From contig NZ_JANBBF010000008.1 of NCBI RefSeq assembly GCF_024648885.1, forward strand, positions 1 through 64,000: DNA of 64,000 nt. Reading direction: 5' to 3'. Positions 7,569-13,012 of this stretch are shown here, piece after piece (within the stretch, counting starts at the first letter, position 1; the number at the start of each line of letters is the position of its first letter). A model generated the notes under the pieces. The model saw only the letters and a list, made by a program, of their open reading frames with translations, was not told the DNA's origin and did not search any database. This DNA is from Prauserella salsuginis. Lineage in GTDB: Bacteria > Actinomycetota > Actinomycetes > Mycobacteriales > Pseudonocardiaceae. A program made the position numbers and the translations under genes.

Positions 7569-7667
7569 CGCGTCGTCCCGTCGGCGGCACGATGACGGCC
7601 GGAGGGCGGCACGATGACGTCCGCCACGGGACGCCCGCCAGAGGCGAAGACGACGAGAGGATCGGCC

Positions 7668-8840
7668 ATGCCCGGCACACAGACACCGCTCGGCCTGTTC
7701 GGCACCGAGGACCTGATCTGCGAGGACGACAGGGCGATCCGCGACACGGTGCGGGCGTTCACCGCTGACCGGATCCGCCCGCATCTGGCGGACTGGTTCG
7801 ACAGCGCGTCGATCCCTGCGCGCGACCTGGCCCGCGAACTCGGCAAGCTCGGTGTGCTCGGCATGCATCTCGAGGGGTACGGCTGCGCCGGTACCACGGC
7901 GACGGCCTACGGCCTGGCCTGTATGGAGCTCGAGGCCGCCGATTCGGGACTGCGGAGTCTCGTGTCGGTGCAGGGGTCGCTCGCGATGTACGCGATCTGG
8001 CGCTGGGGCTCGGAGGAACAGAAGCAGGAGTGGCTGCCGCGGATGGCCGCGGGGGAGGCGATCGGGTGCTTCGGCCTGACCGAGCCCGATTTCGGGTCGA
8101 ACCCCGGCGAGATGCGGACCTACGCGCGCCGTGACGGGGAAGACTGGGTGCTCAACGGCACGAAGATGTGGATCACCAACGGTTCCGTGGCCGACGTGGC
8201 CGTGGTGTGGGCGCAGACCGACGACAAGATCCGGGGCTTCGTCGTGCCCACGGACACACCCGGATTCTCGGCTCCGGAGATCACGAAGAAGCTGTCGCTG
8301 CGGGCTTCGGTGACCAGTGAGCTCGTGCTGGAGGACGTCCGGCTGCCCGCGTCCGCCATGCTGCCGGAGGCGCGCGGCCTGTCCGGACCACTGTCGTGCC
8401 TGAACGAGGCCCGCTACGGCATCGTGTTCGGCGCACTCGGCGCGGCCCGGGACTGCCTCGAGACCGCGATCGCCTATGCGCAGGAACGCGACATCTTCGG
8501 CAAACCCCTGGCCTCCTACCAGGCCACCCAGCTCAAACTCGCCGACATGAGCCTCGAGCTCGGCAAGGGAATGCTGCTGGCGCTGCACCTCGGAAAGCTC
8601 AAGGATGCCGGCACGCTCACGTCCGAGCAGGTCAGCACCGGCAAGCTGAACAACGTGCGGGAGGCCATCGCGATCGCGCGGGAATGCCGGACGCTGCTCG
8701 GTGCCAACGGCATCAGCCTCGAATACCCGGTCCTGCGGCACGCCAACAATCTCGAATCGGTGCTGACCTACGAGGGCACGTCGGAGGTGCACCAGCTCGT
8801 CATCGGGCAGACCCTGACGGGCCACTCGGCGTTCCGGTGA
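7668..8840 (+). CDS. Acyl-CoA dehydrogenase, glutaryl-CoA dehydrogenase-like
   Basis: A 390-residue FAD acyl-CoA dehydrogenase. GCFGLTEPDFGSNP and the following KMWITNG are the FAD/substrate signature region. TYEGTSEVHQLVIGQTLTG carries the catalytic-base Glu in the position used by glutaryl-CoA dehydrogenases (TYEGT). The stretch LRSLVSVQGSLAM matches the substrate-binding segment of that group. The usual role is oxidative decarboxylation of glutaryl-CoA in lysine, tryptophan or aromatic degradation. ATG 7668 was chosen for AGAGG at 7656-7660. It stands alone, downstream of a TetR gene. Confidence 0.85.
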   Translation: MPGTQTPLGLFGTEDLICEDDRAIRDTVRAFTADRIRPHLADWFDSASIPARDLARELGKLGVLGMHLEGYGCAGTTATAYGLACMELEAADSGLRSLVSVQGSLAMYAIWRWGSEEQKQEWLPRMAAGEAIGCFGLTEPDFGSNPGEMRTYARRDGEDWVLNGTKMWITNGSVADVAVVWAQTDDKIRGFVVPTDTPGFSAPEITKKLSLRASVTSELVLEDVRLPASAMLPEARGLSGPLSCLNEARYGIVFGALGAARDCLETAIAYAQERDIFGKPLASYQATQLKLADMSLELGKGMLLALHLGKLKDAGTLTSEQVSTGKLNNVREAIAIARECRTLLGANGISLEYPVLRHANNLESVLTYEGTSEVHQLVIGQTLTGHSAFR

Positions 8841-8967
8841 CGGCCGGCGCCGGCCTGTGAGCGAGGTCTCCACCCGCGGCAACGATGCAGGCCGGCGCCG
8901 ATCCCGGGGTGGGCGAGCGGTCTTCACCGCGTCGTCGCCGGGCGCGACGGCGGGCCGCGGGAGGCTA

Positions 8968-9177
8968 GGGTGGCGGTGCTGGTGGTTCACCCGCGCCGGG
9001 CCCGCACGGGCCTGCCGGGTGAGGCAAGAGGGAACCCGGTGCGAATCCGGGACTGCCCCGCAGCGGTGAGCGGGAACGACCGCCGTCAACAGCACTGGAC
9101 CCCGGGTCCGGGAAGCGACGGCCAGTAGGACCTCCGGCCCAGGCCGGGAGTGCCCGCGAGTCCGAAGACCTGCCACC
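8968..9177 (+). ncRNA. Cobalamin riboswitch (aptamer) upstream of metE-like gene
   Basis: The conserved core is plain: GGGAACCCGGTGCGAATCCG, then ACTGCCCCGCAGCGGT, GGCCAGTAGGACC, and near the 3' end CGAGTCCGAAGACCTGCC. This is the arrangement of the AdoCbl riboswitch (Rfam Cobalamin family). In actinomycetes it commonly turns off the B12-independent methionine synthase when B12 is plentiful. The 5' boundary is approximate. Confidence 0.93.
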
Positions 9178-9179
9178 GG

Positions 9180-9203
9180 CGCGCGCACCACCCGGTGCGC
9201 GCG
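9180..9203 (+). terminator. Hairpin just after the cobalamin aptamer
   Basis: A 10-bp GC stem (9180-9189 with 9194-9203) and 4-nt loop begins two bases after the aptamer. It could be the expression-platform terminator, although there is no T-tract. The remaining leader to the TTG start at 9321 holds no other obvious element. Confidence 0.5.
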
Positions 9204-9320
9204 GGTCCGAGGTCTCGCGGGTGGACCGGGCGGACGGGCCGGGGTGTGTGCCCCGATCGGCGTGCGCCCCTCCGGCGGGACCGTCGGCACCCGTGTCGAC
9301 GAGCTCGCGAGGAGAGAGCA

Positions 9321-11417
9321 TTGACCGGCATCATCGGTTCCACCGTCCTGGGATATCCCCGCATCGGCCCCGGCAGGGAGCTGCCGCGGGCGCTCGAACG
9401 TTACTGGACCCACCGCGCGGACGAGTCCGAACTCCGTGCCGTCGCCCGGGAACTGCGGGCGCGCACGTGGCGGGAGCTGTCCGCCGCGGGGCTCGACTCG
9501 GTGCCGGGCGGCACCTTCTCGTACTACGACCACGTCCTCGACACGGCCGTGATGGCCGGTGCCGTGCCCGAGCGGTTCCGTGCGCTCGGCCTCGGCCCGT
9601 TGGACACGTACTTCGCCATGGCACGGGGCACCGACTCGGTGTCACCGTTGGCCACCGCGTCCTGGTTCGGCACGTCCTACCACCACCTGGTGCCGGAGAT
9701 CGGTCCGGACACCCCGCTCACGTTCGCCGACCGAACCCCGGTGCGGGACTATCTCGAGGCGTTGCGGCTCGGCGTGCACACCCGGCCGGTGCTGCTCGGC
9801 CCCGTGACGTTCCTGCTGCTGTGCGCCCCGGAGCCGGGGTCGCCGCCCGGTTTCCGGCCCCTCGATCGGCTCGGCGAACTGCTCGGGGTGTACGCCTGGG
9901 TGCTCGGCGAGTTGCAGGCGGCTGGAGCCGACTGGGTGCAGCTCGACGAACCGGCGTTCGCCGCCGACCGCACCGCCGCCGACCGTGACGCCCTGCGGGA
10001 CGCCTACGACGTCCTGGGCGCCCGGACGCGGCGCCCGGCCCTGTTGGCCGCCGTGCCGTACGGCGACCCGGGGCCGGCACTCGGCGCCCTCGCCGCCACA
10101 CCCGTCGAGGGCGTCGCGGTCGACCTCGTGTCGGAGACGTCCACGGTGAACACGGTCGTCGCCGCGCCGGGCCTGTCGGACAAGACGCTCGTGGCCGGGC
10201 TGGTCGACGGGCGCAACGTGTGGCGCACCGACCTCGACACGGCGCTGGTCACGGCGGCCACGCTGCTCGGTTCGGCACGGGAGGTCGTGGTGGGCACATC
10301 GTGCTCGCTGCTGCACGTGCCGTACGACCTCGACCGGGAGACCGCGCTGGACCCGCAGGTCGCGCCGTGGCTCGCGTTCGCCTCGCAGAAGGTGCGGGAG
10401 GTGGTGGCGCTGGCCACGGCGTTGCGCCGCGGCCCCGACACCGCCGCAGCCGAGCTGACCCGCACCCGGGAGATCCTCGCCCACCGCGGTGCGAACCCGC
10501 CTACCGACCGGCGCGTCCGGGCGCGGCTGGCCACCCTGCGGCCTGCGCATCTCCGGCGCGCCGCGTACGCCGACCGGCGCGCGGCGCAAGACCGTAACCG
10601 CGGGTCGGACGAACCGATCGACCCGCTCGTGGCGGCCGTCGACCGGCGGGCGCGCACCGACAGCGGCGGCGACGAGTCGTACGCCGAACGGATGCGCGCG
10701 GGCCTGCACGACGTGGTGCGCCTGCAGGAAGTGCTCGGACCGCACGCGGCAGACCTCGCAGCGCCCTCGGCCGACCAGCGGCGCTACGACGACCTGGTGT
10801 GTTTCGTCGCGCAGCGGCTGCGCGGCGTCGTGACCCCCGAACACGCGTGGGTGCAGCACAGCGGCGCCTACTGTGTCCGGCCACCGATCGTGGTGGGTGA
10901 CGTGAGTAGGGCGGCGCCCATGACGGTCAAGTGGGTCACGACCGCCCAGCGGCTGACCACGGCTGCGGTGAAAGGCGTGTTGCCCGGTCCGGTGACGGCG
11001 ATCGCGGGGATGTTCGTACGCGACGACGTCCCGGTGCTCGACACGGCGGCGCAGCTGGCGCTCGCGCTGCGCGACGAGGTGCGAGACCTGGAAGCGGCCG
11101 GCATTCGCGAGATCCAGGTGGACGAGCCCGCGTTGTGGCGGCGGCCGCCGCTGCGTGAGCGGGCCCGCCGTGACCGGTGGACGTGGGCGACCGAGGCGTT
11201 CCGGGTGGCGACGTCGGGCGCCGCGGCGTCGACGCGGATCCGCACACAGCTGGGTGATGCGGGGATCGAGGAGACGCTGCAGGTCACCGCGGCGCTCGAC
11301 GCCGACGTGACGACGACCGCCGCGGCGACGGCGGGGTCTCGTGCCCATGCGGACGCGCTCGCGATGCTGCGGAACGCGGCGGCCGGACCGGAGTCGGCCG
11401 GCAGGCCGTTGCCGTAA
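9321..11417 (+). CDS. metE: Cobalamin-independent methionine synthase homologue lacking the zinc site
   Basis: A 698-residue MetE homologue, shorter than the usual 750 or so. TTG 9321 follows AGGAGAGAG (9310-9318). The N-terminal half is well kept: TVLGYPRIGPGRELPRALE, WFGTSYHHLVPE, VQLDEPAF, GTSCSLLH. In the C-terminal half VKGVLPGPVT, LALALRDEV and IQVDEPAL are recognisable, but key segments are gone. The IGSFPQT homocysteine loop and the VHGEAERNDMVE block cannot be found. The zinc motif HTHLCYAEF is replaced by RTQLGDAGI (residues 641-649). The later Glu ligand is Ala, and the region that should hold the fourth ligand (NPDCGLKTR) is deleted. No frameshift explains this. A normal synthase reaction is unlikely; it may be a decaying gene or a repurposed folate-binding protein. 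Confidence 0.85.
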   Translation: MTGIIGSTVLGYPRIGPGRELPRALERYWTHRADESELRAVARELRARTWRELSAAGLDSVPGGTFSYYDHVLDTAVMAGAVPERFRALGLGPLDTYFAMARGTDSVSPLATASWFGTSYHHLVPEIGPDTPLTFADRTPVRDYLEALRLGVHTRPVLLGPVTFLLLCAPEPGSPPGFRPLDRLGELLGVYAWVLGELQAAGADWVQLDEPAFAADRTAADRDALRDAYDVLGARTRRPALLAAVPYGDPGPALGALAATPVEGVAVDLVSETSTVNTVVAAPGLSDKTLVAGLVDGRNVWRTDLDTALVTAATLLGSAREVVVGTSCSLLHVPYDLDRETALDPQVAPWLAFASQKVREVVALATALRRGPDTAAAELTRTREILAHRGANPPTDRRVRARLATLRPAHLRRAAYADRRAAQDRNRGSDEPIDPLVAAVDRRARTDSGGDESYAERMRAGLHDVVRLQEVLGPHAADLAAPSADQRRYDDLVCFVAQRLRGVVTPEHAWVQHSGAYCVRPPIVVGDVSRAAPMTVKWVTTAQRLTTAAVKGVLPGPVTAIAGMFVRDDVPVLDTAAQLALALRDEVRDLEAAGIREIQVDEPALWRRPPLRERARRDRWTWATEAFRVATSGAAASTRIRTQLGDAGIEETLQVTAALDADVTTTAAATAGSRAHADALAMLRNAAAGPESAGRPLP

Positions 11418-11478: not shown

Positions 11479-12792
11479 TCAGTCCGCCGTCGCCGGCCGG
11501 CGGCCGAGCGCGGCCGTGAACGCGACGACGAGGGCGAAAGCGACGGCGATGCCCTGTACCGCAGGGATCCCCACGTCGAACAGTGATCCGACCAGTGCTG
11601 CGGCCGTGCCGCCGACATAGGCGAGCAGTCCGGGCCACACCACGAGCGGGACGTCCTCGACCGCGGTGCCGGGATCGCGGCGTCGCCACGCGAACAGGAA
11701 CATGCCGATCAGCACTCCGCCCAGCGGGGGAACGAACACTCCGAGCAGCGTGAGGAAGGCCGTGATCGCCTCGTCGATACCGGTGAGTGCCATCCCGATG
11801 CCGATGGCCACGCCACCGACGATGAACGGCCGCTTGTCGGGTTTGCCGAACAGCTCGGCACCCGCGACGCCGAACGCGTACGCCGTGTTGTCGTTGGTGG
11901 TCCACAGATTCGTCACGATGAGCAGGACCGCCAGACCTGTCGAACCGAGCCCGAGGAGCACGTTCGCGAAGTCCGGTTCGCCGTAGCCGATCGCTCCCAG
12001 CCCGCCGAAGGCGAGGAGTCCGAACTGGACCAGCAGCATCGTTCCGGCCGTCATCGCGAAGGCGAGCGTGCTGCCCGGGGCGAACCGCGTCCAGTTGCCG
12101 ATCTGCGAACCACCGCTGACGAACGTGCCGATCATCATGGTCAGCGCCGTGCCTGCGCTGATCGCTCCCGTCCCCTCGTAGGACACCACGGCGTCCCAGC
12201 CGCCCGCCTCGCCGACCGCCGAGATCGCGACCCAGAGGCACAGCGCCGTCATGAGCGGTACGGAGATCCACGACAGCAGCTCGATGCCGCGAAACCCGGT
12301 GTAGGCCGTCACGGCCATGGCGATTCCGCCGACCAACACGAGTGGCCAGGTCACCGACAGGTCGAACGCACCGCCCAACAGGGTGGCGAGCACACCGACC
12401 GTGATGCCGTACCAGCCGATCTGGGTGCCGCCGAGCAGGAGCGAGGCCCATTTGCCGCCGGCTTTGCCGAGCGCGAGCCGTGCCAGCAACACGGTGGTGA
12501 GACCGGTGCGGGCGGCGGCGATGCCCAGGGTCGCGATGTAGCCGGCCAGCACGAGCGCCGAGATCAGCGCCAGTACGAGGAACGTCGGGAAGCCGAACGC
12601 GCCCGCGACCTGTCCGCCCGTCGCCATCGTCGGGGTGAAGAACCCGAAGCCGGCGATGACCACGGCGAGGGAGGCGATGCCTTTGCGCGCGTGGTCGGGA
12701 ACCCTGCTCAGCGGATGATCGCGGTCGATCGGTGCCGGGGCGGCGCCCGGGTCGGCGGCGCCCGGATCGGATGGTGTCTGCGACGTCGTCAC
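11479..12792 (-). CDS. codB: Cytosine permease-like NCS1 transporter
   Basis: A 437-residue membrane protein of the NCS1 nucleobase:cation symporter family, closest in layout to CodB. About twelve hydrophobic segments follow a short polar N-terminus. Family hallmarks include GFFTPTMATGGQVAG in TM1, GGTQIGWYGITVGVLA, and NLWTTNDNTAYAFGVAG in the middle. It would import cytosine or a related base. GTG 12792 is preferred because GAGAGG precedes it and the upstream extension is Arg/Pro-rich. No deaminase gene lies beside it, so the substrate is an inference. Confidence 0.85.
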   Translation of the reverse strand: MTTSQTPSDPGAADPGAAPAPIDRDHPLSRVPDHARKGIASLAVVIAGFGFFTPTMATGGQVAGAFGFPTFLVLALISALVLAGYIATLGIAAARTGLTTVLLARLALGKAGGKWASLLLGGTQIGWYGITVGVLATLLGGAFDLSVTWPLVLVGGIAMAVTAYTGFRGIELLSWISVPLMTALCLWVAISAVGEAGGWDAVVSYEGTGAISAGTALTMMIGTFVSGGSQIGNWTRFAPGSTLAFAMTAGTMLLVQFGLLAFGGLGAIGYGEPDFANVLLGLGSTGLAVLLIVTNLWTTNDNTAYAFGVAGAELFGKPDKRPFIVGGVAIGIGMALTGIDEAITAFLTLLGVFVPPLGGVLIGMFLFAWRRRDPGTAVEDVPLVVWPGLLAYVGGTAAALVGSLFDVGIPAVQGIAVAFALVVAFTAALGRRPATAD

Positions 12793-13012
12793 GGAGCACC
12801 TCTCGGGAGGGGACGGGGAGAGGGGAGCACCGCTCCACGGCGACGGGGAGCGTACGTGCGCACAGCGGCGGACGTTAGCCCGACAGCGTACCGCCGTGTT
12901 GCGTGCGTTCGGCACGGGCGCCCGCGGGCACGCCCGTGGAGGTCACGGTGACGACGTCAGGGGTTCGGGGTGCGTCGGCCGGGTGGAGGGCAGGGAGTGG
13001 ACGCCCGGCCGG

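Follow-up and report, generated by a model that had tools for sequence, protein, structure and literature searches.

A cobalamin riboswitch upstream of a probable MetE pseudoenzyme in Prauserella

What does a cobalamin (B12) riboswitch control when the methionine synthase homologue downstream of it has lost its catalytic residues? The question is raised by a stretch of Prauserella salsuginis DNA (assembly GCF_024648885.1, contig NZ_JANBBF010000008.1, positions 1 to 64,000; hereafter the window, 64 kb long), in which such a riboswitch precedes the gene of a 698-residue MetE homologue. The comparisons below point to a riboswitch-controlled MetE pseudoenzyme, probably no longer tied to methionine synthesis but retained for another role that would rest mainly on its N-terminal barrel. 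If this is right, the locus encodes a double-barrel MetE without methionine synthesis but with B12 control and selection.

Loss of the catalytic residues

Both homologous barrels of MetE are detected in the protein as Pfam domains Meth_synt_1 (330.7 bits, model positions 2-308 of 313) and Meth_synt_2 (184.1 bits), the second one shortened: since its match covers model positions 20-252 of 324, the end of the catalytic domain is missing. Among solved structures, MetE enzymes give the best sequence matches (A. thaliana 1u1h, 438.5 bits). Active-site residues, numbered here as in T. maritima MetE (PMC539065), were compared in an alignment of the window with 47 of 101 candidate loci, the remaining 54 having failed the start pattern. 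Eight of 109 candidates had been excluded earlier: L013, L018, L029, L042 and L062 are duplicates of kept or candidate loci, L066 has a split frame, and L011 and L044 duplicate each other, so that their protein is absent from the residue alignment. Copies that keep the listed residues are called functional MetE, a class that rests on sequence and not on activity.

None of the four zinc ligands is kept: His618 is replaced by Gln643, Cys620 by Gly645 and Glu642 by Ala667, while Cys704 is deleted. Two of the three homocysteine side chains are lost as well (Ser411 to Pro435, Glu462 to Ala481), Asp577 being retained, and five of the seven folate contacts are replaced (Lys18 by Pro, Lys104 by Ser, Arg493 by Tyr, Trp539 by Gly and Glu583 by Arg), which leaves Arg15 and Arg496. 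The 43 functional MetE of the same alignment all keep the listed zinc, homocysteine and folate side chains; their sole deviation at the listed sites is a backbone contact, Ile409, which is Val in the Prauserella genome G001. A sequence-only reading of this DNA had already described the loss of the zinc and homocysteine sites, and the alignment bears it out in detail: the zinc motif reads RTQLGDAGI, where functional Prauserella MetE-A has HTHLCYSEF and G001 has HTHLCYAEF, the Glu ligand has become Ala, and the whole segment β7-α7-β8 including the last Cys ligand is missing, a short tail with 1 of 25 functional-invariant columns standing in its place. The same reading held the HGEAERNDMVE block to be unrecognisable; its homocysteine Glu is indeed lost, but a D-L-V remnant is still present. 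Its further proposal of a folate-binding protein with a new role is unsupported because five of the seven folate contacts are gone: three basic residues, the Trp that stacks on the pterin and the Glu that binds it.

The losses are shared by relatives. The full degenerate form is found in four Prauserella species, namely P. salsuginis (G000), P. halophila (G005), P. isguenensis (G003) and P. aidingensis (G004), and 65 of the 71 N-barrel columns that are invariant among the 43 functional MetE are also kept in all four, in line with the earlier remark that the N-terminal half is well conserved. A motif check covered 128 loci and the window, with a MetE match in 126 of these loci and in the window. 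The HTH[LM]CY-type and NPDC motifs are missing only from the window, from 14 locus ids that represent five degenerate Prauserella copies (the four and a less advanced one of P. rugosa), and from the fragment L127. This last (G033:C1:4657396-4658217) is a MetE fragment with two in-frame TGA codons, and its source genome also carries, about 19 kb off, a metE with all motifs.

One locus with successive stages

The four degenerate copies lie at one syntenic locus, which also harbors the P. rugosa (G002) copy, at an earlier stage, and an intact enzyme in G001; the lineage at this locus is labelled here MetE-B. To judge from the sequences, a TetR-type gene and a gene for a molybdopterin-type dehydrogenase flank the common locus on one side; the opposite flank holds the permease or a GH25-like gene. 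In G002, G005 and G006, the 12 kb surrounding the functional copy contain no match to these neighbours. In the tree, the MetE-B copies form one clade in which G001 branches first, followed by P. rugosa and then by the four degenerate copies, with clade supports of 99.9/100, 99.6/100 and 100/100 for the full protein and 99.5/100, 87.3/98 and 100/100 for the N half alone. Among the best 80 of 403 relatives from a scan of 84,980 species genomes, a list that possibly omits the P. salsuginis genome itself, three degenerate copies stand apart at 79-87%, with P. rugosa at 59% and functional MetE at most at 58%.

The P. rugosa copy is an intermediate: zinc His618 is kept and a Glu is aligned at Glu462, Glu642 and Glu583 are both Asp, and both zinc Cys, Ser411, Lys18, Lys104, Arg493 and Trp539 are replaced. 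Intact, partly lost and wholly lost stages thus exist at one locus in living relatives, which provides a testable series from enzyme to pseudoenzyme. The reading frame is open, as had been stated from the sequence, with no stops in a form shared by four species. A sequencing error or frameshift is rejected, the same form being found at the same locus in three other Prauserella species. A relative with a complete domain at this locus had been named as a possible refutation; G001 has one, but it reveals the direction of change rather than an error.

Purifying selection

The ratio of nonsynonymous to synonymous rates (omega, dN/dS) was fitted with a codon-likelihood script of our own for four regions: N barrel, linker, C (residues 441-665) and tail. 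Among the four degenerate copies, the comparison that the sequence-only reading had called for, the N barrel has an omega of 0.069, the linker 0.113 and C 0.085, in fits that run low because third-position GC is about 0.9. These values fit far better than an omega of 1, twice the log-likelihood difference (2dL) being 364, 103 and 242, respectively. The corresponding values among four functional copies are 0.088, 0.082 and 0.035. For each region, neutral evolution was simulated 12 times with each of two mutation GC values; the same fit then gave far higher omega (0.36-0.73 for N, 0.43-0.78 for C), and stops arose in all 24 N runs and in 22 of the 24 C runs, whereas the real copies have none. 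By a branch test, constraint on the N barrel matches that seen in functional copies (2dL 1.4), and the C part is relaxed about 2.5-fold (0.096 versus 0.039, 2dL 14.7).

Pairwise Nei-Gojobori ratios, which cover 4 of the 6 possible pairs of these degenerate copies, come out higher: 0.15-0.23 (N), 0.18-0.37 (linker), 0.20-0.41 (C) and 0.30-0.69 (tail). Variable sites at the three codon positions number 47/27/131 in N, 33/17/55 in the linker, 47/41/108 in C and 13/14/18 in the tail, the third-position excess having p values of 4e-20 in N and 7e-10 in C. On this codon evidence, purifying selection is clear for the N barrel, the linker and most of the remaining C domain, and the last 31 residues appear to be retained weakly if at all. 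With omega low and the old sites lost, the protein is kept, though probably not for its old chemistry.

Riboswitch and leader

The riboswitch appears intact, as the first reading had it: the RF00174 match spans the full model with its core conserved, and it is the sole Rfam match above gathering score within the window. The aptamer core is kept across an alignment of nine Prauserella metE leaders, in all nine of which GAGCTCGCGAGGAGAGAG, the 18 bases 5' of the start, is identical. RF00174 scores range from 74.0 to 82.8 at the five degenerate loci (the four and P. rugosa) versus 76.9 to 88.7 at four functional Prauserella copies; the G001 match spans model positions 45-169 only. The TTG codon that follows AGGAGAGAG was taken as the start, the same start context being found in relatives. 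The longest open reading frame (ORF), of 755 residues with a GTG start, was rejected as gene model since it begins too early, within the riboswitch.

In the predicted fold of the P. salsuginis leader, the GGAG of the Shine-Dalgarno stretch pairs with an upstream CUCC, which suggests translational control; the pair probabilities of this hairpin are 0.96-0.99 in a single-sequence fold of 8966-9345, a prediction made without control. High B12 would then shut the pseudoenzyme off through the riboswitch by sequestration of the Shine-Dalgarno stretch, and the protein would be made when B12 is scarce, if the switch acts as stated for metE elsewhere.

Cobalamin riboswitches also occur elsewhere in these genomes. 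Each locus of a functional MetE-A copy has a second, stronger one (L120:342-559, L118:11419-11635 and L116:8178-8395; 97-100 bits), about 3 to 4 kb away from the metE riboswitch. P. salsuginis possesses two more, located 5' of ORFs that resemble BtuF-like binding proteins on a by-eye reading without family search.

Predicted structure

The AlphaFold model of the 698-residue protein is MetE-like, with a predicted local distance difference test score (pLDDT) of 88.8 and a predicted template modelling score (pTM) of 0.90. In a Foldseek search, MetE structures occupy ranks 1-29 (TMq 0.77-0.87). Strands β3 to β6 of the C domain (550-555, 597-601, 639-643, 663-665) and a long hairpin are clear, no β2, β7 or β8 is visible in the model, and residues 668-698 fall below a pLDDT of 50. 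In a control model of a functional copy, β7 (691-695) and short β2 and β8 strands are present. Strand β1 is marginal in both models, and the strand numbering is an assignment made in this analysis.

Metabolic setting

MetH and, from B12 synthesis, CobS and CobN are each encoded in 7 of 7 Prauserella genomes. The degenerate copy is the only double-barrel "MetE" of P. salsuginis, P. isguenensis and P. aidingensis; P. halophila and P. rugosa have a degenerate and a functional MetE, and G006 and G001 (the latter 91% complete) a functional one only. Three of the seven genomes are without a functional MetE of either lineage, so that B12-independent synthesis seems dispensable in these. The pseudoenzyme would make no methionine, which MetH would provide while the cell has B12.

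A search for metH and for a second metE had been proposed from the sequence: MetH is present in P. salsuginis, in whose genome (99.95% complete) the protein query matched nothing else up to E 10, and no other double-barrel MetE was found by protein and Meth_synt_2 family searches, a partial match at C1:876889 being left aside. The family search returned that match and two others, a 345-residue protein and an ORF on contig C5 with a different zinc-like motif. The latter two were rejected as a second metE, their reading frames not being those of a double-barrel MetE. The 345-residue single-domain MetE-like protein (L136:624-1661, plus strand) displays HCC and TPTCGLAG motifs and matched no NCBIfam model; Meth_synt_2 matches of similar extent occur in 7 of 7 genomes. 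By analogy, it is perhaps of the kind of Rv3015c, a single-domain MetE-like protein whose activity is called unclear in the part of the source consulted (PMC4428469).

Two of the seven genomes have a second MetH-type ORF beside the usual MetH: L032 (G000:C5:4485-5138) and L135 (G002:C36:4140-4790), with weaker activation-domain matches (102-105 bits versus about 430). These ORFs are perhaps members of a MetH/MetHa pair, as described for actinomycetes in the consulted part of the same source (PMC4428469). In G001, cobN (G001:C25:24025-27296) consists of two overlapping open frames of 924 and 335 residues, as compared to a single frame in the other six.

Competing explanations

The favored explanation starts from a MetE paralogue whose zinc, homocysteine and folate residues, together with the end of its catalytic barrel, disappeared at one Prauserella locus, with the riboswitch, the start region and purifying selection retained through those losses; its function would rest on the N barrel. 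On sequence, lost catalytic residues combined with purifying selection make a pseudoenzyme and not a pseudogene, as stops are absent and omega (0.069-0.085) lies far from neutral values (0.36-0.78). We hold this explanation to be probable, mainly on the strength of residue loss and omega. Several points weigh against it. Ten lost positions of the old sites are still aligned, six fixed and four variable among the four copies (Gln/Asp at His618, Gly/Cys at Trp539, Tyr/His at Arg493 and Ser/Pro at Lys104, all between sister species), which is close to the background in residues 441-665 (72 of 225 positions variable, as compared to 59 of 340 in the N barrel) and points to no special constraint, but is no proof of disuse. 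Simulation revealed the low bias of the omega fits at this GC. The tail signals are mixed, an omega of 0.17-0.18 lying below the neutral 0.45-1.42, yet with a codon-position p of 0.63. AlphaFold was guided by functional MetE rows, so the MetE-like C domain is perhaps overstated, and the full form is known from only four related species. Some of the same observations would suit a slowly dying metE, dispensable through MetH and own B12 synthesis and with an open frame that is a mere leftover: all three sites are lost, the C domain is less constrained than in functional copies, the tail has no codon-position signal and reaches Nei-Gojobori ratios of 2.19 and 1.01 in the longer comparisons of P. 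salsuginis with P. rugosa and G001, and three of seven genomes manage without functional MetE. Such decay is nevertheless improbable given four species without stops where nearly all neutral runs acquired them, an omega about 5-fold under the lowest neutral value, the third-position excess, and an intact riboswitch and start region. Relaxed selection because MetH suffices, one of two options in the sequence-only reading, therefore stands in part: MetH, CobS and CobN are universal in the genus sample and the methionine-synthase sites are free, but the protein itself is under purifying selection.

That the protein is still a methionine synthase, using an alternative zinc site, is scarcely credible: it passes the naming model NF003556 and retains Asp577, but it has none of the zinc ligands, lacks Ser411, Glu462, Trp539, Glu583 and the Cys704 segment, and fails TIGR01371. 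It is also unlikely that the protein was repurposed as an enzyme that acts on a new substrate at an active site newly formed in the cleft between the barrels. The 36 residues that are fixed in all four degenerate copies and differ from the residue found in at least 95% of the 43 functional copies leave room for a new ligand; some of them align to the former folate cleft (K22P, Y122H, S513H, R606W, E607R). Against this, conservation among the four is no higher at the old catalytic positions than around them, a mild argument against new chemistry at the old centre. The barrel end is missing as well, and without model coordinates to measure on, a new metal or catalytic cluster could not be demonstrated. 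A bolder form of the pseudoenzyme explanation, to which only a low probability can be given, is that the MetE double barrel was turned into a binding or sensing protein for B12 scarcity. Basic residues now line what was the folate cleft (Arg15 and Arg496 retained, Glu583 now Arg607 beside Arg608, Tyr now His122, Ser now His513), and they could hold an anionic non-folate ligand; the catalytic barrel, cut towards a half barrel (β3 to β6) in the model, might pair with another copy. The riboswitch would in that case govern a B12-shortage response other than methionine synthesis.

Feature map and neighbouring genes

Table 1. Features of the locus, in window coordinates.
Feature	Position	Strand	Basis
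Acyl-CoA dehydrogenase gene, upstream, outside the system	7614..8840	+	Pfam
Cobalamin riboswitch aptamer (RF00174)	8966..9191	+	79.9 bits vs gathering score 31.5, full model 1-189
Predicted hairpin containing the Shine-Dalgarno stretch	9270..9314	+	CUCC 9270-9273 pairs with GGAG 9311-9314
Shine-Dalgarno stretch AGGAGAGA preceding the TTG start	9310..9317	+	Part of GAGCTCGCGAGGAGAGAG
Probable MetE-derived pseudoenzyme, 698 residues	9321..11417	+	TTG start 9321, stop 11415-11417
N-terminal barrel, residues 1-340, conserved part	9321..10340	+	Column conservation, omega 0.069
Former β2 / HGE..DMV block, residues 474-497	10740..10811	+	Homocysteine Glu lost; predicted helical
Former zinc motif RTQLGDAGI, residues 641-649	11241..11267	+	Residue alignment
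Former zinc Glu642 position, now Ala667	11319..11321	+	Residue alignment
Short remade tail, residues 668-698	11322..11414	+	pLDDT <50; alignment
NCS1-type permease gene, convergent, outside the system	11479..12915	-	Pfam

In each of the four degenerate loci, the acyl-CoA dehydrogenase gene separates the riboswitch from the TetR-type gene. Among the loci compared, it was matched only in those of P. halophila, P. isguenensis and P. aidingensis, the stretches from P. rugosa and G001 giving none at E 1e-15, and it was probably inserted in the lineage of the four, to judge from these matches. The convergent permease gene recurs in P. aidingensis, P. rugosa and G001 but had no match downstream of metE in the stretches from P. 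halophila and P. isguenensis (L121 and L122).

Consequences for annotation

The NCBI curated model NF003556 would name the pseudoenzyme MetE: the P. salsuginis protein passes it (633.7, cut-off 541) and fails TIGR01371 (573.3, cut-off 929.95). The same holds for the four degenerate copies and P. rugosa as a set (618.5-764.5 and 550.4-688.3, respectively), whereas the functional copies of G001 and P. halophila pass both models. Since NF003556 accepts the degenerate form, methionine and B12 dependence would be mispredicted in the three genomes that have no other double-barrel MetE.

Comparison with known systems

No riboswitch-controlled double-barrel MetE pseudoenzyme was found described in the open-licence PubMed Central literature, searched through titles and abstract starts. 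The loss of zinc ligands in the MetE superfamily is already known, and the double-barrel, riboswitch-controlled form appears new within the literature covered. Its nearest counterparts are the MetE enzymes solved from T. maritima, A. thaliana, C. albicans, N. crassa and S. mutans, with which it shares both Pfam domains and the predicted fold (TMq as above), and, as regards riboswitch control, MetE of M. tuberculosis and E. coli, as given in the part of the source consulted (PMC4428469). It differs from them in being without the zinc ligands, two of three homocysteine residues, five of seven folate residues and C-terminal strands. The MesB-like proteins of Chloroflexales belong to the same superfamily, are without zinc ligands and have had another function proposed by their authors, but they have a single-barrel core, and no riboswitch is mentioned for them in the consulted part of that paper (PMC7857596). 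The closest comparison is within the genus: MetE-B of G001 shares locus, clade, riboswitch and start context with the degenerate copies, yet it is full length with all listed side chains intact. Finally, the N barrel of MetE is, according to the consulted part of the structural description, a duplicated zinc/homocysteine barrel whose own sites were obliterated in evolution (PMC539065); in the Prauserella protein, the second, catalytic barrel has lost its sites too.

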